Shown one piece after another: positions 28,826 to 50,951 of a stretch of DNA of 64,000 bases. A program made the position numbers and the translations under genes. Position 1 is the first letter of the stretch. Every line of letters begins with the position of its first letter. The notes under the pieces were generated by a model. It ran no database searches, had not been told where the DNA came from, and worked only from the letters and a program-made list of their open reading frames with translations. Source of the stretch: Leptolyngbya sp. SIOISBB (GTDB lineage Bacteria > Cyanobacteriota > Cyanobacteriia > Phormidesmidales > Phormidesmidaceae); the NCBI GenBank assembly GCA_010671905.1, contig JAAHII010000001.1:6162026-6226025 (forward strand). Direction: 5' to 3'.

Positions 28826-29775
28826 GTCGCGTTGCTGATTCTATTTACTGGCTCAACCGCTATGTTGAGCGAGCCGAAAATGTGGCTCGGTTTGTCGAGG
28901 TCAATCTCAACCTGCTGCTCGATACCCCGGTGGCTGGGCTCACTCAACAGTGGCAGCCCCTAGTGACTACCACGGGGGATCAAAAAATGTTTGAGGAGCG
29001 CTATGGCGATGCCAGTGCGGAAAACGTCCTAAAGTTTCTGACCTTTGATAGCGAGTACCCCAACTCTATTTTGTCCTGTGTGCAATCAGCGCGGGAAAAC
29101 GCCCGCGCCGTGCGGGAAACGATTTCGTCCGAAATGTGGGAGCAGGTCAATACCTTTTATCTGTCCGTTAAAGAAGCTGCCAATCAGGAAATCTCGGTAG
29201 AACGGCTCTACAGCTTTTATCCCGAGGTCAAAATGTCGAGCCACCTCTTTGCTGGGGTGATGGACGCGACGATGGCCCACAATGAGGGGTGGAATTTTGG
29301 ACGTTTGGGGCGTCTGCTCGAACGGGCCGACAAAACGGCGCGCATTCTAGATGTGAAGTATTACATTCTGCTGCCCTCGGTTAAAGATGTGGGGACTCCC
29401 TTGGATGAACTGCAGTGGATTGCCCTGCTGAAATCGGCCAGCGCCTATGAAATGTATCGCAAACGCCAGCGACGGGTAACCCCGGAGGGCATCACGCAAT
29501 TCTTGATTCTAGATCCAGAGTTTCCGCGATCCATTCAATCTTGCCTGCTGCAGGCAGAGCGATCGCTCCACCAAATTACGGGCACGACTATCGGCAGCTG
29601 GTGTAATAGCAGTGAGCGTACTCTTGGTCGCCTGCGCTCCGAATTGGAATACATGACCCTCGACGAAGTGTTTGCCCCAGGCCTGCACGAGTTTCTTGAT
29701 AAGCTGCAAACGCGGCTCAATACGGTGGGTGAGCACATCTACGAAGATTTTATGGCGGTGCCGCTGGCCTCTTAA
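28819..29775 (+). CDS. Alpha-E domain protein (COG2307)
   Basis: A 318-residue, almost wholly helical protein of the alpha-E family, which always travels with the ATP-grasp protein just upstream. The N-terminal signature [24 protein letters not shown] is clear, as are [39 protein letters not shown] and the C-terminal [19 protein letters not shown]. Biochemical role is unknown; partnership with the ligase is inferred from conserved context. It starts inside the last codons of the ATP-grasp gene (ATGCTAA overlap). Confidence 0.92.
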
Positions 29776-29788
29776 CGGAGCATTCTCT

Positions 29789-30661
29789 GTGCGCTATCAC
29801 ATCTCCCATACGACCCAATATCGCTATCAACAACCGGTCAAGTTGGGGGCACATACAGTAAGATTACGTCCCCGGAGTGATGGCAGTCAGCACTTACAGC
29901 AGTTTGCGATCGCGGTCTTGCCAGAGCCGGATAAGCGCTCCGAAATTTTGGATCTGGAGGGCAATGTGTGTCTGCGGCTGTGGTTTCCCGAGGTGGAAAT
30001 TACTGATCTCAAAATCCATACAGAGGCCACGGTTGAGACTTCCCGCGATAACCCGTTCAACTATCTGAGCGAACCCTGGGCGGTTACTGCACCCATGGAT
30101 TATCCCAGAGCGATCGCGACTCATCTTGCTCCGTACTTGCAACCGGCCTTGGCCACGACGTTTAATCCATCTGTGGTGGAGCTAGCGCAAACGCTACTTC
30201 ATGAGGTACAGGGCCATGTGGGCTTCTTTCTCTCGCGGCTCACCCAGACCATTTACGAGGAGTTTCAGTACTTCCATCGCCCGGAAGGCGAGCCGCAACC
30301 CACAGGCATCACCCTGCAGCAGAAATCCGGTTCCTGTCGCGATTTTGCCGTGCTGTTTATGGAAGCTTGCCAAGCCGTTGGTCTCGCAGTCCGGTTTGTC
30401 AGTGGTTACCAAGAAGGTGACGCCGAACAAGATAGTCGCGAACTCCATGCCTGGCCAGAGGTCTACCTTCCCGGTGGGGGGTGGCGCGGCTTTGACCCAA
30501 CTCACGGGTTAGCGGTGAGCGATCGCCACATCGCCCTCGCCGCCGCCGCCCATCCCCAAAACGCTTCCCCCGTCTCGGGTCAGCTCCAGCCAGGATACTT
30601 TGGACAATCCACGCTGGAGTATGAGATTCAGATACAGCGATCGGCCCTAGCGACAGATTAG
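29789..30661 (+). CDS. Transglutaminase-like cysteine peptidase of the Anbu cluster
   Basis: A 290-residue protein with an N-terminal beta domain beginning RYHISHTTQYRYQQPV and a transglutaminase core. The catalytic triad is Cys183 (GSCRDFAVLF), His220 (ELHAWPEVYL) and Asp236 (GFDPTHG). Start is GTG 29789 with GGAG 8 bases upstream and 13 bases after the alpha-E stop. It may cleave or cross-link peptides made by the ATP-grasp partner (inference). The last 47 codons (from about 30518) recur, diverged, three times downstream at 31324, 32184 and 34079, each after an unrelated gene cassette. Confidence 0.92.
   Translation: MRYHISHTTQYRYQQPVKLGAHTVRLRPRSDGSQHLQQFAIAVLPEPDKRSEILDLEGNVCLRLWFPEVEITDLKIHTEATVETSRDNPFNYLSEPWAVTAPMDYPRAIATHLAPYLQPALATTFNPSVVELAQTLLHEVQGHVGFFLSRLTQTIYEEFQYFHRPEGEPQPTGITLQQKSGSCRDFAVLFMEACQAVGLAVRFVSGYQEGDAEQDSRELHAWPEVYLPGGGWRGFDPTHGLAVSDRHIALAAAAHPQNASPVSGQLQPGYFGQSTLEYEIQIQRSALATD
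30518..30661 (+). repeat. Transglutaminase 3'-end repeat, parental copy
   Basis: This 144-base segment, still within the intact gene, encodes SDRHIALAAAAH...SGQLQPGYFGQSTLEYEI. It is the reference for three diverged downstream copies. Confidence 0.85.
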
Positions 30662-30779
30662 GTTGTCGTTATAAAACTCTCTTTCGGATTGCTAAGGCAG
30701 TGCATTTGTCGATGTTGAAGAGTCTGAGTTTTGCTTGGCCAAACTAGCTTCGGTTGATATGCGATCACGCTCAAACGAA

Positions 30780-31211
30780 ATGAATTTGTACAAACTGTCG
30801 AATTCTGCTTTTTTGGTTATAGCCTTGATAGAAGCTTCTCGAAATGCATTAATACACACCAGAATTGCATTCTCACAGCCAACGGATCAACTGCCTACGT
30901 ATCGTTTTTCTATAATCCTCTTGCTTACAACCATGAGTTTGGCTATTCATAACACGCACAGATTCTCTGAGCATCATCAAAACTGGTTGAGAAATATTGT
31001 AAATCTACTACCAGTATGGTTGAAGATGGTCAGCATACTTTTAGGGATTTATGGTTTTGCCACGGGATGTTACTGTTTGTCCTTATATATCTCGTCAGGA
31101 TACGCATTGGGTGATTGGGAATATTGGCGTTTGCGAGAAATATCCAGAGGCAGAACTATGCTTTATTATTGTTGCGCCTTAGTTTTTTATGCTTCTCTTA
31201 AAACAGAATAA
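30780..31211 (+). CDS. Small polytopic membrane protein, unknown (cassette 1)
   Basis: A 143-residue protein (158 if a TTG at 30735 is used) with about four hydrophobic segments: NSAFLVIALIEASRNALI, FSIILLLTTMSLAIH, a long one in WLKMVSILLGIYGFATGCYCL, and MLYYCCALVFYASL. It matches no family I recognise. The base composition is visibly more AT-rich than the flanking operon and lacks GCGATCGC, which points to a foreign origin. It lies alone between the real end of the transglutaminase gene and its first partial copy. No good ribosome-binding site decides the start. Confidence 0.5.
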   Translation: MNLYKLSNSAFLVIALIEASRNALIHTRIAFSQPTDQLPTYRFSIILLLTTMSLAIHNTHRFSEHHQNWLRNIVNLLPVWLKMVSILLGIYGFATGCYCLSLYISSGYALGDWEYWRLREISRGRTMLYYCCALVFYASLKTE

Positions 31212-31323
31212 TTGAAATTAGCTTTTTGAGCTCAGATGTAGATAGGTTTGAGTAACGGAATCCGGTGCCTTCGTTAGTAGGTTTGGCTCTCTGCTACGTC
31301 AGCGCGATCGCATGTGGAGAGAG

Positions 31324-31377
31324 GGGCAATCCACTCTAGCGTATGAGATTCGGCTTCAGAGATCGGCCATCACTTAA
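31324..31377 (+). repeat. Transglutaminase 3'-end repeat, copy A
   Basis: Reads GQSTLAYEIRLQRSAIT-stop (18 codons), matching GQSTLEYEIQIQRSALATD-stop of the parental gene. It has no start and is a non-coding relic. Confidence 0.85.
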
Positions 31378-31447
31378 AGCCAAATTCAAGAACAAAATCA
31401 AGGTTTCTAGAGCGATCGCGGCGACACAGCTTAAGCTCTTTCCCGTT

Positions 31448-31477
31448 TTGAACAGTCGCCAAGCCCTCCTGTATATA
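31448..31477 (+). promoter_or_regulatory. Predicted promoter of the VapBC-type operon
   Basis: TTGAAC (31448-31453) and TATATA (31472-31477) are separated by 18 bases, 34 bases upstream of the antitoxin ATG. The AT-rich TGTATATAC...GTACATC around the -10 box could be the autoregulatory operator. Confidence 0.5.
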
Positions 31478-31511
31478 CTTGTCGGTACATCCAACAAGGT
31501 GGAGCACGCCC

Positions 31512-31745
31512 ATGCGTACCCGCGTCTTCCAAAGCGGCAACTCACAAGCCGTCCGCATACCCAAAGAAATGCAGTTTGAGCGTTTAGACGTGGAATACGA
31601 AATCGAGCGCCAAGGTGACGCGATTATCGTTCGTCCCGTTGGGGTGCCCTTGACTAATATCCTCGACCGATTCGCGGCATTTTCGGACGACTTCATGGTA
31701 GCAGGACGCCCTGACCAAGGCATTCAGGAGCGGGACGCTCTGTGA
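31512..31745 (+). CDS. VapB/VagC-type antitoxin (AbrB-like DNA-binding)
   Basis: A 77-residue antitoxin. The N-terminal half is a swapped-hairpin AbrB/SpoVT domain: MRTRVFQSGNSQAVRIPKEM, then LDVEYEIERQGDAIIVRP. This part binds the operon promoter in relatives. The C-terminal tail (ILDRFAAFSDDF...RPDQGIQERD) should wrap the toxin. GGTGGAG lies 8 bases before the ATG. Its TGA overlaps the GTG of the PIN toxin by 4 bases, the classic coupled arrangement. Confidence 0.92.
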   Translation: MRTRVFQSGNSQAVRIPKEMQFERLDVEYEIERQGDAIIVRPVGVPLTNILDRFAAFSDDFMVAGRPDQGIQERDAL

Positions 31746-32173
31746 AGTATATGCTCGATACCAACCTCTGCATTTACCTGATGAAGCACCAGCCACCCTC
31801 TGTCGCTGCGCGATTTGCGGCCTGCCGCCAGGGCGATGTGGTGATTTCGGCCATTACGTTGGCAGAGCTAGAGTATGGGGTGCGGGCCAGCAACGAAGAG
31901 AGAAGAACACAGAATCGTCAGGCACTAGATGCCTTGGTTGAGATGATTCCAGCGGTAGCGTTTGATGATATGGCGGCGGCTGCCTACGCAGACTTTCGGG
32001 CCGCCACTCCTAACCGCCGCCGTGATGCCCTCGACAAGCTCATTGCCAGCCATGCTAAAAGCTTGAGCCTAACGCTGGTGACCAACAATCTCGTTGATTT
32101 TCGTGATTATCCTGATCTTGTATTAGAAAACTGGGTGGATGAAAATCAACGTGGCTCAATCGGGAGTGATTAA
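31742..32173 (+). CDS. VapC-type PIN-domain ribonuclease toxin
   Basis: A 143-residue PIN-domain toxin expected to cleave tRNA or rRNA when not bound by its antitoxin. Acidic metal-binding residues are visible: Asp6 in YMLDTN, Glu42 in ITLAELEYG, and Asp98 in DALDKLIASHA, followed by the TLVTNN strand. Start GTG at 31742 overlaps the antitoxin stop. The stop is only about 10 bases from the next transglutaminase-end relic, so the pair fills cassette 2 almost exactly. It appears intact. Confidence 0.92.
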   Translation: MKYMLDTNLCIYLMKHQPPSVAARFAACRQGDVVISAITLAELEYGVRASNEERRTQNRQALDALVEMIPAVAFDDMAAAAYADFRAATPNRRRDALDKLIASHAKSLSLTLVTNNLVDFRDYPDLVLENWVDENQRGSIGSD

Positions 32174-32183
32174 TGGAAACCGG

Positions 32184-32302
32184 CACGATCGCCACATTGC
32201 TCTCGCCGCCCCCCCGTCTCGGGTCAGTTCCAGCCTGGTTATTTGGGGCAATCCATGTTGGAATATGAGATTCGGATGGGGCGATCGCCAGTTCCCGTAT
32301 AG
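32184..32302 (+). repeat. Transglutaminase 3'-end repeat, copy B
   Basis: Begins at the codons for RHIALAA, has lost about 30 bases in the middle, then reads PVSGQFQPGYLGQSMLEYEI and ends RMGRSPVPV-stop. It is diverged from both the parental copy and copy C. Confidence 0.85.
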
Positions 32303-32319: not shown

Positions 32320-33267
32320 ATGATGTCAAAAAAGTTGTTAGCCTGTTTTTTGGTTTTTGCAGCAACCATCTTGAATTCATGCCAGTCAGGTCGTTTTGCT
32401 GCGTCTCAATCACAGTTCATCAACAAAACCATTTCAGAATATATCCTCTTTGCTGCTGGTGATAGCACTGATCCACTATTGCATGTTAGATATCCGTTCT
32501 CGAACTCGGAACATACATTAGAAAACTCTATGAATGAGCAAAAAGAGGGGGGATGGGAAAATTACGCGGTTAGTTTCGACTCAATCTCTTCTGATTTGCC
32601 TAAGCAAAGAAAAGCAATAAATCTTGAAAATAAACTAGAGACCATTAAATCAGATAATGGGACATGCACTTTGACTTTTCGATATCCTCAACTAAGTGGG
32701 TTCGAGAAAAATTGGCAAGCGGACATCAATCGAATTCTAAAGCAGCAAATCGTTGATTTTACCAGCACTTTTTATTTGACGGTTTCAGAACATGAGGGCT
32801 GTACGGAAGAGTCAGATTTGGATCATTTGGGGATGGAAGTAGACCCATGCATAGTCACTTTTGCCCAGAAGGACATTGTGAGTTTCTTTTGTCACACCAT
32901 CAGAGCAGGTAGAAGTGCATATCCCATCAGCAGCACTAAAGGAATCACTCTGAATTTGAGAACTGGAAAGATATACGAATTCAGTGACCTATTTAAGGAA
33001 AACTCCAACTATCAAAAAAGGGTTAGCGGCCTTATTCTTGAGCAGTACGATGCTTTGGCTGCCATTGATGCTGAGCTGCTAGCTTATGTTAGAGAGGATG
33101 AAACCTTTTACCTCCATACCAACTGCCCAGATTCCTCAATAAGTTCCACTTGTTTGGCTATACCTACTAACTTCACTAGCGGAGCATTGAGAGGGATGGT
33201 CTCCTACATAAATATTGAGGATTTAACAGATATTCTGAACTCTAGCCATGAATTTCAGATCCTCTAA
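32320..33267 (+). CDS. Lipoprotein with RsiV/PdaC-like DUF3298 domain (cassette 3)
   Basis: A 315-residue predicted lipoprotein: signal peptide MMSKKLLACFLVFAATILNSC with a lipobox-like ILNSC, Cys21. The body fits the DUF3298/DUF4163 fold: a first part FRYPQLSGFEKNWQADINRILKQ and a second part SFFCHTIRAG...GITLNLRTGKIYEFSDLFKE. Family members bind or sense cell-wall material and lysozyme in Firmicutes, but the role here is unknown. Composition is AT-richer than the neighbours and no HIP1 site is present, suggesting recent transfer. It begins 18 bases after repeat copy B. Confidence 0.72.
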   Translation: MMSKKLLACFLVFAATILNSCQSGRFAASQSQFINKTISEYILFAAGDSTDPLLHVRYPFSNSEHTLENSMNEQKEGGWENYAVSFDSISSDLPKQRKAINLENKLETIKSDNGTCTLTFRYPQLSGFEKNWQADINRILKQQIVDFTSTFYLTVSEHEGCTEESDLDHLGMEVDPCIVTFAQKDIVSFFCHTIRAGRSAYPISSTKGITLNLRTGKIYEFSDLFKENSNYQKRVSGLILEQYDALAAIDAELLAYVREDETFYLHTNCPDSSISSTCLAIPTNFTSGALRGMVSYINIEDLTDILNSSHEFQIL

Positions 33268-33431
33268 AGTAGCTTGCTTGTTTCTTTTAGTAGCTCGGAT
33301 TTAAGAACGAAACTTGCCCTAAAGTTGATTCTTAGAAAAAGTGGCGCGATCGCTTATGGAGTGAGGAGAGAAAACTACTGGCATTTACTCACAATAGAAT
33401 AGAGGCATGACTGGGCTATATGGGAGCCACA

Positions 33432-34043
33432 ATGACAGCACAAGCCGTACCGCAACTTCAGCCGCTTTCGCTTCAGCTTCCTCACGAGGTGATGCTAAAA
33501 GTCACGTCCGAGCAGTTTGCGGTGTTGGCAGCTGCGAATCGTGACCTGAGATTAGAACGCACTGCCACCGGAGAGTTAATCGTGAACCCACCTGCCGGTA
33601 GCGAGTCAGGACGCCGGAATGCGAAAGTGATCACGCAGCTTGGTATTTGGAGTGAGGCTAACGGAGAGTTAGGTGAAGCCTTTGACTCCTCGACGGGATT
33701 TGAGTTGCCGAATGGAGCCAATAGATCGCCCGATGCGGCTTGGGTGCGCCGAGAGCGTTGGGAAGCCTTGACGCCAGAACAAAGAGAGGGATTCGCGCCG
33801 CTGTGTCCTGACTTTATAGTGGAGCTGCGCTCCAAGACCGACAGGCTCAAGGTGTTGCAGGCAAAGATGCAGGAATATCTGGAGAACGGTACTCAACTGG
33901 GCTGGCTCATTGACCCGCAAACGCGACGGGTGGAAATCTATCGATCGGGTCAAGCAGTCGAAGTGTTGGAAAATCCCGAAATATTGTCTGGCGAGTCGGT
34001 TTTACCGGGGTTCACATTGGCCTTGAAACGCATTTGGAACTGA
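33432..34043 (+). CDS. Uma2-family (DUF820) putative endonuclease
   Basis: A 203-residue protein of the PD-(D/E)xK-like Uma2 family, abundant in cyanobacteria. Motifs: LIVNPPAGSESGRRNAKV, NGANRSPDAAWVRRERW (acidic), CPDFIVELRSKTDRL (E-x-K-like core), and GTQLGWLIDPQTRRVEIYR. Nuclease activity is predicted from fold, not shown. GGGAG lies 6 bases before ATG 33432. The stop is 35 bases before repeat copy C. It could belong to the inserted cassette or be an independent arrival. Confidence 0.88.
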   Translation: MTAQAVPQLQPLSLQLPHEVMLKVTSEQFAVLAAANRDLRLERTATGELIVNPPAGSESGRRNAKVITQLGIWSEANGELGEAFDSSTGFELPNGANRSPDAAWVRRERWEALTPEQREGFAPLCPDFIVELRSKTDRLKVLQAKMQEYLENGTQLGWLIDPQTRRVEIYRSGQAVEVLENPEILSGESVLPGFTLALKRIWN

Positions 34044-34078
34044 TGAGCACACATTTCGGAGCTTTGGGTGAGATCGGA

Positions 34079-34214
34079 GAGCGATCTCCACATCGCCCTC
34101 GCCGCCGCCGCCCAGCCCCAATACGCTGCACCAGTTTCAGGTCAGCTCCAACTCGGTGATTTCGGCCAGGCAATGTTGAAATATGAGATTCGGCTGGAGC
34201 GAGCGGCCCACTGA
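34079..34214 (+). repeat. Transglutaminase 3'-end repeat, copy C
   Basis: The most complete relic: SDLHIALAAAAQPQYAAPV then SGQLQLGDFGQAMLKYEI and RLERAAH-stop, open throughout but without a start codon context. Confidence 0.87.
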
Positions 34215-34270: not shown

Positions 34271-35383
34271 CTAGTTTCTGACAAGCTGCAGGGTAGCTTG
34301 ATTATCGATAGGCAGATAGCGCCCGTCTGCATCCACCGCGCCGAACGCTCGAAACAGCCGATTCATCTCAGCGGGAAACTGGTCATAGTCACACCGGCTG
34401 TCCCCTGCTGAAATATCGGCCCAAAAGTCTTGCAGCTCTGGGGCGTAAAATTCAGCCTTGTCTGTCGACAAATTGAATGGTGGGCTAGTCAGCAGTCGCA
34501 CCATGAAATGCTGGGAGCGATCGCGCATCCACTGCCGCGACGTGATTTGCAAATCTGGCCAATCCGCTACGGCCTGCACCCGATGACTCTCGACGGCTAA
34601 CTGCAATTGCCCCGATGTTTGTGGCGTCAAGGTCAAAATTCGGTAAGGGTGAGGATAACTAACCAGCGAGCCCGTGGTGATTTCCCAGAGGTCGCCCGCT
34701 TGGGCGATATCTTGCACATGCAAATGTCCGGTAAATAGCAAATTCACCTGGCCTTCTCGCAGGCGAATGAGCAGTTCATCCCGATTTTGCGTGATGTAGC
34801 GACGTCCCATGGTATGGCGAGCCTGTCCTGGCAAATGTTCCAACACATTGTGATGAATGGCCACCATCACCCAGTCATCGCGCAGAGTCTCTAATGTGGC
34901 CGATAGCCAATTGAGTTGCGGCCCATCCACAAAACCGGCAAACAGTTGCTGGCCGTCTTCGTCAAAAGCAATGGAGTTGAGTCCAATTAAATGCATTCCC
35001 GGCAGCAGTTCTTGATGGTAGTAGGGGCGATCGCCGGTATAGCCAAAATCGCGATAGAGCTGGGGAAAGTCCGCCAGACCAAGGGTGCGATCGCCGCCGT
35101 CACGGTCAATAATGTCGTGATTGCCCGGCACGACATAGGCTGGAAACGGGAGTCGTTTGAGGCGATTCACCAACCATTCATGATTTTCTCGTTCGCCGTG
35201 TTGAGTCAGGTCACCGGGCAGCAGTAAAAAGTCGAGTTGCTCAGTTTCAAGCGATCGCAAAATTTGCTCAATGGCGGGAATGCTGACCTCCACCAAATGA
35301 AATCGCTGGGGAGTGTGGGCGATGGTGTGGGGCAACGCGATGTGAGGATCGCTGATGATAGCAAAGCGACAAGGACGAACCAT
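34271..35383 (-). CDS. Metallophosphoesterase (calcineurin-like)
   Basis: A 370-residue cytoplasmic phosphoesterase with the five metal-binding blocks: SDPH (Asp12, His14), GDLTQHG (Asp58), GNHD (87-90), AIHHN, and TGHLHVQD. It resembles the cAMP phosphodiesterase/Icc-like branch, but the substrate cannot be read from sequence. A C-terminal extension of about 110 residues follows the catalytic core. The gene stands alone and is divergent from the gamma-glutamylcyclotransferase-like gene, 125 bases apart. Confidence 0.87.
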   Translation of the reverse strand: MVRPCRFAIISDPHIALPHTIAHTPQRFHLVEVSIPAIEQILRSLETEQLDFLLLPGDLTQHGERENHEWLVNRLKRLPFPAYVVPGNHDIIDRDGGDRTLGLADFPQLYRDFGYTGDRPYYHQELLPGMHLIGLNSIAFDEDGQQLFAGFVDGPQLNWLSATLETLRDDWVMVAIHHNVLEHLPGQARHTMGRRYITQNRDELLIRLREGQVNLLFTGHLHVQDIAQAGDLWEITTGSLVSYPHPYRILTLTPQTSGQLQLAVESHRVQAVADWPDLQITSRQWMRDRSQHFMVRLLTSPPFNLSTDKAEFYAPELQDFWADISAGDSRCDYDQFPAEMNRLFRAFGAVDADGRYLPIDNQATLQLVRN

Positions 35384-49969: not shown

Positions 49970-49998
49970 TTGACAAGCAAATACAAAAACCGTATATT
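49970..49998 (+). promoter_or_regulatory. Strong promoter of the DUF4278 operon
   Basis: TTGACA (49970-49975) and TATATT (49993-49998) are separated by exactly 17 bases, a near-consensus sigma-70 promoter. It ends about 18 bases before the first riboswitch aptamer, so the transcript would start at or just before the aptamer. Confidence 0.8.
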
Positions 49999-50015
49999 TG
50001 GATACAGAAAGCAAA

Positions 50016-50129
50016 TCGTTCATCCAACCAGCATATCTGGCTAGGACGGAAGTAGGAGAGAACCCTCTGAAGGAACGCGCCTCTTTCACTACACGATCAA
50101 CATCTCTGTTGTCATTTGGAGGCGAAATA
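50016..50129 (+). promoter_or_regulatory. Glutamine-riboswitch-type leader 1 (glnA / Downstream-peptide RNA)
   Basis: The aptamer (50016-50081) has the family blocks in order: TCGTTCATCC, AGGACGGAAGTAGGAGA, and CTGAAGGAACGCGCC. CGTTC (50017-50021) pairs with GAACG (50073-50077) to close stem P1. CGCCTC just after P1 (50078-50083) can pair with GAGGCG (50119-50124), the ribosome-binding region, giving a translational switch. In Synechocystis, relatives bind glutamine and switch on small inhibitors of glutamine synthetase. Confidence 0.93.
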
Positions 50130-50300
50130 ATGAGCTTACGTTATCGTGGTGCAGAATACGAACCCTGCAAAGCCGGTTTTAACTATTTTGAAGAAGTGAT
50201 TGGGACCTACCGAGGTGCTCCTGTTACTCGTCGAGTTGCCACTAATGCTCCAAGTCAGCATGTTGACGGCTTGACTTACCGTGGTGCCAAGGTTCGCTAA
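50130..50300 (+). CDS. DUF4278 protein, copy 1
   Basis: A 56-residue protein: MSLRYRGAEYEPCKAGFNY, then IGTYRGAPVTRR and a C-terminus DGLTYRGAKVR. The YRGxxY/YRGAxV motif recurs three times, typical of cyanobacterial DUF4278. No membrane segment and no known activity. GGAGG lies 8 bases before the ATG and is partly sequestered by the leader. This copy differs most from the other two, notably CKAGFNYFE instead of TPQVQLTE. Such short proteins behind glutamine riboswitches may act as nitrogen-status effectors (inference). Confidence 0.92.
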   Translation: MSLRYRGAEYEPCKAGFNYFEEVIGTYRGAPVTRRVATNAPSQHVDGLTYRGAKVR

Positions 50301-50317
50301 AACTGTTTGTCGCTAAA

Positions 50318-50422
50318 TCGTTCATCCGACCAGGGTATCTGGCTAGGACGGAAGTAAGAGAACTTCTCTGAAGGAACGCGCCTCTCAATTCTCTACAAAT
50401 CATTCATTAAGAGGCGAAAATC
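50318..50422 (+). promoter_or_regulatory. Glutamine-riboswitch-type leader 2
   Basis: The same blocks as leader 1: TCGTTCATCC, AGGACGGAAGTAAGAGA, CTGAAGGAACGCGCC (50318-50382). P1 is CGTTC (50319-50323) with GAACG (50374-50378). CGCCTCT then faces AGAGGCG located 6 bases before the ATG, an even longer anti-SD/SD pairing (7 bp). The leader follows the first stop by only 17 bases. Confidence 0.93.
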
Positions 50423-50593
50423 ATGACCCTACGTTATCGCGGTGTTGAGTACAGCACTAAAACCCCTCAAGTTCAACTCACTGAAGAAGTGATCGGCCAA
50501 TATCGTGGCGCGACTGTCAGCCGTCATGTAGCTCAGAATTTGCATGCTGACCACGTTGATGGTTTAACTTATCGTGGTGCCAAGGTTCGCTAG
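50423..50593 (+). CDS. DUF4278 protein, copy 2
   Basis: A 56-residue protein: MTLRYRGVEYSTKTPQVQL, IGQYRGATVSRHVAQNLHAD, DGLTYRGAKVR. It keeps the three YRG motifs. The C-terminal codons and the downstream spacer match copy 1, while the body matches copy 3, so this middle unit looks like the product of unequal exchange. Start is exactly 293 bases after copy 1. Too short to be picked out by usual length cut-offs. Confidence 0.92.
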   Translation: MTLRYRGVEYSTKTPQVQLTEEVIGQYRGATVSRHVAQNLHADHVDGLTYRGAKVR

Positions 50594-50610
50594 AACCGGC
50601 TGTCGTTAAA

Positions 50611-50715
50611 TCGTTCATCCGACCAGGGTATCTGGCCAGGACGGAAGTAAGAGGATTTCTCTGAAGGAACGCGCCTCTCAATTCTCTACAAATCATTCAT
50701 TAAGAGGCGAAAATC
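50611..50715 (+). promoter_or_regulatory. Glutamine-riboswitch-type leader 3
   Basis: Nearly identical to leader 2: TCGTTCATCC, AGGACGGAAGTAAGAGG, CTGAAGGAACGCGCC (50611-50675), P1 CGTTC (50612-50616) with GAACG (50667-50671). The CGCCTCT/AGAGGCG pairing before the ATG is unchanged, although the P2/P3 arm has small differences (GGATTTCTC for GAACTTCTC). Confidence 0.93.
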
Positions 50716-50886
50716 ATGACCCTACGTTATCGCGGTGTTGAGTACAGCACTAAAACCCCTCAAGTTCAACTCACTGAAGAAGTGATCGGCCAATATCGTG
50801 GCGCGACTGTCACCCGTCATGTGGCTCAGAATTTGCATGCTGACCACGTTGATGGTCTTGTCTATCGCGGTGCAGTCGTTAAATAG
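50716..50886 (+). CDS. DUF4278 protein, copy 3
   Basis: A 56-residue protein differing from copy 2 at one central residue (ATVTRHV for ATVSRHV) and in the C-terminus (DGLVYRGAVVK instead of DGLTYRGAKVR). It begins exactly 293 bases after copy 2. The near-identity of leaders and bodies shows recent duplication. The last unit is followed by a terminator. Confidence 0.92.
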   Translation: MTLRYRGVEYSTKTPQVQLTEEVIGQYRGATVTRHVAQNLHADHVDGLVYRGAVVK

Positions 50887-50951
50887 GCTGGCGATCTTCC
50901 TGATGGGGAAGAGAAGCATTCTGGAGTAACAAAAACTTTGGGAGTTGAGAA

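Follow-up and report, generated by a model that had tools for sequence, protein, structure and literature searches.

In accretion of the ICESt/CIME type, elements are added in tandem in the 3' end of a gene, with the end repeated, the gene left intact and the modules arranged in a row. PMC4057263 describes a comparable case, PAISt at bacA, and PMC3967940 describes orphan rhs-CT/immunity modules, in which displaced 3' fragments, with small genes after them, lie behind an intact gene. Chromosomal integron cassettes offer a further parallel, in which each unit carries a single gene or operon, repeats mark the unit borders and toxin-antitoxin (TA) pairs occur among the cargo.

The array described here, in a cyanobacterial genome, shares these features and departs from each of the systems. 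Compared with the ICESt/CIME and PAISt cases, it has no recognised recombinase, its repeats are unequal in length, each module holds a single gene or operon, and an unrelated gene end elsewhere in the genome is involved too. In contrast to the rhs-CT modules as presented in PMC3967940, the repeated gene, denoted TG, is not a polymorphic toxin gene and has no relationship to its cargo. Unlike integron cassettes, the modules are bounded by gene-end sequence that has no notable fold (z of -0.95 against shuffles, 33 of 200 of which were as good; this concerns folding only, the attC motif aside) and that adjoins no Phage_integrase match. An integron cassette array was rejected on the latter ground, with no such match within 30 kb. 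Among the top-ranked literature matches, we found no publication on gene-end cassette arrays of the present kind.

Results

An insertion behind a conserved gene row

The array lies within the 64,000-nucleotide stretch of DNA that was analysed (hereafter, the window, to which all coordinates without a contig label refer), part of the 8.34 Mb, two-contig genome of Leptolyngbya sp. SIOISBB. TG is a transglutaminase-like gene (29777..30661, plus strand; Pfam Bact_transglu_N and Transglut_core) with an unsettled start codon, the ORF opening at 29672. It closes a row of genes identified with Pfam as proteasome-like, circularly permuted ATP-grasp, Alpha-E and transglutaminase-like, the last three of which lie side by side in each of the five genus relatives examined, where the TG orthologues are 70-82% identical. 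In the host, an insertion of 3.4 kb, so far seen in this genome only, separates TG from a convergent metallophosphoesterase gene (MPE; 34271..35383, minus strand; Pfam Metallophos), the original neighbour, which adjoins TG in relatives G001, G005 and G003. The insertion carries an orphan gene for a 158-aa protein, a vapBC operon, a gene for a 315-aa PdaC/DUF3298-like protein and a Uma2 family gene. Elsewhere in the window, an ORF region at 49998-50898 contains tandem repeats with a unit length of about 300 nt.

Copies of the TG gene end border the modules

Taking the 3' end of TG (30513-30661, plus strand) as the reference, we identified three further copies of it, all on the TG strand and each closing with a stop codon that is in frame with the TG end. 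Copy A (31324-31377, stop at 31375-31377) forms, together with a HIP1 site at 31304-31311, junction A (31304..31377); it retains only the last part of the TG end, with 82% identity over 45 nt, and is preceded by a spacer that is single-copy in the host genome. Copy B (32186..32302) opens at CGATCGCC, closes with TAG and matches the TG end at 83% over 77 nt and at 92% over a 25-nt block, the gap of 22 nt between the two corresponding to a deletion in the copy. Copy C (34075..34214), the most distal, matches at 79% over 135 nt and lies 56 bp from MPE. The copies are thus of unequal length (54, 117 and 140 nt for A, B and C). The starts of copies B and C coincide with one CGATC site of TG or precede it by 7 nt, and the 5' start of A is about 80 nt further into the TG end. 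Searched against the whole host genome, the TG end matched four places only, all at the TG locus, namely, TG itself (E = 5.5e-90), A (1.6e-5), B (4.4e-16) and C (1.5e-25), so that chance matches or a genome-wide repeat family can be excluded.

Direct repeats of the gene 3' end therefore mark the module borders at A, B and C, and at the boundary that separates the 315-aa gene from Uma2 there is a candidate only. No copy of the TG end was found there by BLAST; a HIP1 site with a flank resembling that of junction A is present (33346..33371, plus strand), matching at 11 of 16 nt. Of the 4803 HIP1 flanks in 2.0 Mb that were compared with that of junction A, this one scores best, but four others, outside the array, reach 10 of 16. 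This site is possibly a very worn fifth junction, D.

The empty site in relatives and the age of the copies

In G001 and G005, both of the same genus as the host, the match to MPE starts, with residue 367 of 370, 62 bp past the TG stop codon, and in G003 it starts 88 bp past it; G004 has other genes after TG, and in G002 the contig ends at TG. Given that copy C lies 56 bp from MPE, compared with the 62 bp between the TG stop and MPE in G001 and G005, the most plausible reading is that copy C is the original end of TG and that the insertion lies upstream of it. By eye, the last codons of copy C and its stop resemble the TG end of these two relatives. TG was matched in 54 of the 58 relatives, and C-terminal partial TG matches occur in the host only. 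In a sample of 20 relatives with a TG match, 19 have DNA downstream of the gene (the exception being G002), and in none of these 19 was a same-strand copy of the gene end detected behind TG at E <= 1e-4; the best match, in G015, is 62.5% identical with E = 0.007. Both the empty site and the gene-end copies can be read directly from the genomes compared.

Over the 42 nt common to all copies, the TG end is matched at 34 positions by A, 34 by B and 29 by C, small numbers that fit C as the oldest copy. Copy C shares 101 of 129 nt and 30 of 43 aa with TG, and the G001 gene end shares 102 of 129 nt and 36 of 43 aa; because fewer amino acids are kept at near-equal nucleotide identity, copy C looks less constrained as a coding sequence. 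The distance between C and TG (96/124) is about equal to that between G001 and TG (99/124). In a tree of gene ends that comprised seven sequences besides the TG end itself and left out copy A, B and C grouped weakly (bootstrap 58; FastTree 0.88), and the copies are too short for the tree to resolve this set relative to G001 and G005. The new ends may thus have come from other strains or from local duplication.

The vapBC operon

The segment between copies A and B (31378-32183) contains vapB and vapC and no other cargo, as the original prediction had it. The antitoxin gene vapB (31514..31745, plus strand; ATG start at 31514) encodes 77 aa with a MazE_antitoxin match in Pfam and clears the NCBIfam VapB model NF040493 (75.2 bits against a cut-off of 60). 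The toxin gene vapC (31742..32173, plus strand; from GTG at 31742 to the stop at 32173) overlaps it by 4 nt and encodes 143 aa with a Pfam PIN match of 59.7 bits (cut-off 23.6). The operon as a whole (31514-32173) is separated from copy A by 136 bp and from copy B by 12 bp. VapC matches solved tRNA(fMet)-specific VapC toxins, the best being 3zvk (E = 4.8e-20), and carries MLDTN, LAELEYG, LDKLIASHA and TNN at places aligned with the solved proteins. These segments include what we take to be the conserved acidic, catalytic residues of PIN domains; the 3zvk chain has G at the position of the first of these D residues of VapC. The pair can be considered established as VapBC on the strength of these matches.

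The resemblance to the tRNA(fMet)-specific branch extends to VapB in front, the 4-nt overlap, the PIN toxin and a conserved upstream motif. The differences are that the host VapC continues for 11 residues beyond ENWV, whereas the matches of the closest solved chains end at NW, and that it stays below the cut-offs of both NCBIfam models for tRNA(fMet)-specific VapC, one of which is set at the equivalog and the other at the subfamily level (NF047863, 117 against 140 bits; NF010285, 75.4 against 143 bits).

The original prediction also placed a promoter about 70 bases after copy A. A promoter-like -35 element, TTGAAC, can be recognised by eye at 31448, 70 bp past the copy, and the pattern TGTATATACTTGTNNNTACR, a promoter- or operator-like 20-mer at 31470-31489 (plus strand), has a single match in the window and none in shuffles, and recurs upstream of 4 of the 5 close VapC homologues; a consensus promoter scan, however, listed no promoter upstream of vapB. 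The five homologues, in G011, G002, G013, G026 and G028, are 74-82% identical to VapC. In the four for which VapB is at least 74% identical too, the DNA shared with the host begins at 31455-31470 and stops at 32139-32149; the conserved unit is thus the operon with its upstream motif. In G011, the vapBC homologue is followed by a Uma2-like stretch, and both of these kinds of cargo are present in the host array.

The other cargo genes

The 158-aa gene (30735..31211, plus strand) encodes a protein with no Pfam or NCBIfam match and with one weak match among the 58 relatives. The 315-aa, lipoprotein-like product of the third cargo gene (32320..33267, plus strand) shows weak similarity to PdaC and DUF3298, with E-values of 0.004 and 0.03 that fall short of the cut-offs, and has relatives in G002 and G003 only among the 58 genomes, at 44% identity at best. 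The Uma2 family gene (33432..34043, plus strand) is securely assigned (Pfam Uma2, E = 8.8e-47) and has 17 further match rows in the host genome. In GC content, vapBC (53.8%) and Uma2 (54.4%) can be set against the 158-aa (38.6%) and 315-aa (40.1%) genes and against the window as a whole (52.6%).

Neither a phage nor a plasmid origin of the insertion was adopted: there was no phage match, and the 22 plasmid records that matched did so over short pieces only, at 60-80%. In the 10 of these 22 records that were listed, VapBC genes, Uma2 genes or no annotation lay under the match.

HIP1 sites and the boundaries

PMC4390886 reports that there is some evidence that HIP1 takes part in site-specific recombination and in illegitimate recombination, and none that it does so in homologous recombination. 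In the array, copy B opens at CGATCGCC, a HIP1 site lies 13 nt from copy A, and copy C begins near GCGATCTC; at the second locus described below, a HIP1 site lies 17 nt from the copy. Expressed as the fraction of 2.0 Mb that lies as close to HIP1, the background is 0.04 for A, 0.214 for B (0.011 for CGATCG), 0.645 for C, 0.049 for the second locus and, for three further loci, 0.083 (PfkB), 0.844 (3955892) and 0.019 (3977244). For 4 of the 7 boundaries, the HIP1 distance is thus equalled or undercut in no more than 8.3% of the 2.0 Mb, whereas copy C and the 3955892 locus lie far from any HIP1 site. The proximity is uneven, was noticed post hoc and depends on boundaries drawn by BLAST, and is taken as a lead only.

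Similar loci elsewhere in the host genome

We scanned two portions of the host genome for gene-end copies, 1.22 Mb with 964 ORF-genes and 0.8 Mb with 631, about 2.0 Mb together. Within these 2.0 Mb, one further locus was found that combines a gene-end copy with an insert and an empty site; there, the gene at G000:C1:2514994-2515986 has a 57-nt copy of its end (82%) 2.45 kb downstream (region 2514994-2518493). The gene has no Pfam match and is presumably an MBL-type exonuclease; neither of the two ORFs searched in the insert has a Pfam match. The DNA that follows the end copy in the host is found within 33 bp of the gene end in G001 and within 88 bp in G005, the same next gene lies about 770 bp away in G004, and G003 shows no match within 1.5 kb, so that clean empty sites were seen in 2 of 4 relatives (with a protein check for G001).

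Other loci match this arrangement in part. At the PfkB locus (G000:C1:2227526-2232099), a 220-nt copy comprising the gene end and 80 bp of downstream DNA lies 3.36 kb away, beyond three recognised ORFs, a DUF1400 hydrolase, an ABM protein and an isochorismatase; there is no clear empty site, the neighbours being different in G001 and G005. Perfect tandem duplications that span gene ends and carry no cargo were found at 5550200 (unit of about 96 bp; G000:C1:5550104-5550263) and 2446315 (about 82 bp; 2446233-2446341). Two candidates come from the host scan only, a gene-end copy 298 bp downstream at 3955892 and a 51-nt copy 6 kb downstream at 3977244. A 98% copy lies 162 bp behind 591550, inside an array at G000:C1:570001-598000 that we assume, from its YD-type sequence, to be Rhs-like; this array contains many orphan C-terminal fragments with small genes interspersed. 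Six repeats of about 161 nt, mostly intergenic, 84-93% alike and spaced 0.7-2 kb apart, occur at G000:C1:5517700-5524380.

Local direct repeats are plentiful in the host (130 pairs in the 1.22 Mb). The scans returned 22 gene-end rows for 964 genes and 27 for 631, compared with 11 gene-start rows for 962 genes and 42 for 629. An excess of ends over starts as a signature of 3'-end targeting was, therefore, dropped: starts are copied too, and many of the rows resemble paralogues or repeats of the Rhs type. Among the end rows, close inspection covered six loci, the two short tandem duplications and two more, and the remainder were judged by extent and identity.

Discussion

We favour, with a probability of roughly 55%, the reading that the array arose by stepwise accretion through recombination in the TG gene end and that one cargo of the insertion is VapBC, a mobile type II TA operon of an ordinary kind. 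In each event, a new TG-like gene end together with a cargo would have been placed into the 3' end of TG, keeping TG intact; the displaced older end would persist in worn form, still with its stop codon, and copy C, beside MPE, would be the oldest such end. General recombination most probably made the joints: on the side of TG they would rest on homology, and on the opposite side they would be illegitimate or formed through short homology, at or close to CGATCG sites of the HIP1 type. The order of events, this mechanism and the part played by HIP1 are inferred. Several observations weigh against this reading: the weak grouping of the copies in the tree, the distance of C from TG, about that of G001, the uneven proximity to HIP1, the lack of a clean empty site for the second locus in G003 and G004, the abundance of local direct repeats and of copied gene starts in the host, and the lack of a firm family for the 158-aa and 315-aa cargo proteins. 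Homology-facilitated illegitimate recombination, in which one end is joined by homology and the other illegitimately, is described in PMC3240628, and PMC3784515 describes the creation of tandem duplications by transformation. Either process could produce the observed layout, in which the intact gene comes first, the old end follows the cargo and the left-over copies are of unequal length.

Two other routes to a similar layout have to be weighed against accretion by general recombination. The 3' end of TG might be an attachment site at which small elements without a recombinase of their own, resembling cis-mobilisable elements, were integrated in succession by a recombinase acting in trans, each restoring the gene end. 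Such site-specific accretion would account for the gene-end copies with stop codons, the intact TG and the common 5' boundary of B and C, and it has a known counterpart in the gene 3' end and 8-bp palindrome used by PAISt at bacA (PMC4057263). Enzymes that might act in trans are encoded in the genome, with 17 rows (16 over the cut-off) for Phage_integrase, the sole recombinase family searched genome-wide, the nearest about 34 kb from the array. This route, however, needs a recombinase and a fixed core, and profile matching found no recombinase among the cargo proteins; moreover, the copies differ in length, none is seen behind TG in the 19 relatives, and the second locus, at an unrelated gene end, is not readily explained by one recombinase, all of which makes this account doubtful. 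No more probable, in our estimate, is that slippage or unequal exchange first duplicated the gene end locally and that unrelated insertions landed between the duplicates later. The two perfect, cargo-free duplications are what the first step of such a process predicts, but several separate insertions would be required, each between duplicates, and repeated rounds of duplication would be needed as well, given that the copies look different in age. Taken together, the second locus and the tandem duplications lead us to lean towards general recombination over one recombinase with one site.

The original prediction went further and regarded VapBC as an addiction module that helps to keep the array in place, in which case post-segregational killing would select against loss of the segment. 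The operon looks intact, and TA cassettes are said, in PMC11551772, to stabilise the superintegron of Vibrio cholerae; by this analogy alone, it is plausible that VapBC could resist loss of the segment once present. The expected association of the pair with repeat copies was not borne out: same-strand direct repeats (E of 0.01) flanked none of 8 other loci with VapC homologues, in a scan that recovers the repeats at the host array, with flanks of 111 to 5000 bp (right flanks of only 111 bp in G002 and 369 bp in G026) and with three of the eight homologues only 44-45% identical. In addition, no TA pair was recognised in the second insert bounded by gene ends, of which two ORFs were searched. 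A single array from a single genome is too little to judge stabilisation, and, with no association in the comparison, we consider a maintenance role for VapBC unlikely.

A broader extension of stepwise accretion would be a recombinase-free, integron-like stacking of genes in HIP1-rich cyanobacteria, with gene 3' ends as landing and exchange sites, joints of the HIP1 type, single-gene cassettes later swapped or lost between gene ends, and TA cassettes slowing the loss. We regard this as a highly speculative scheme and quite improbable at present.

The TA pair itself appears routine, and the manner in which the array was formed is mildly unusual. With the original end, the empty site and the differently worn ends all visible, the array constitutes a readable record of stepwise gene gain. 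If arrays of this kind prove to be general, they would provide a simple way to locate and order single-gene gains in cyanobacteria without a mobile-element enzyme, and would let the role of HIP1 in recombination be tested.
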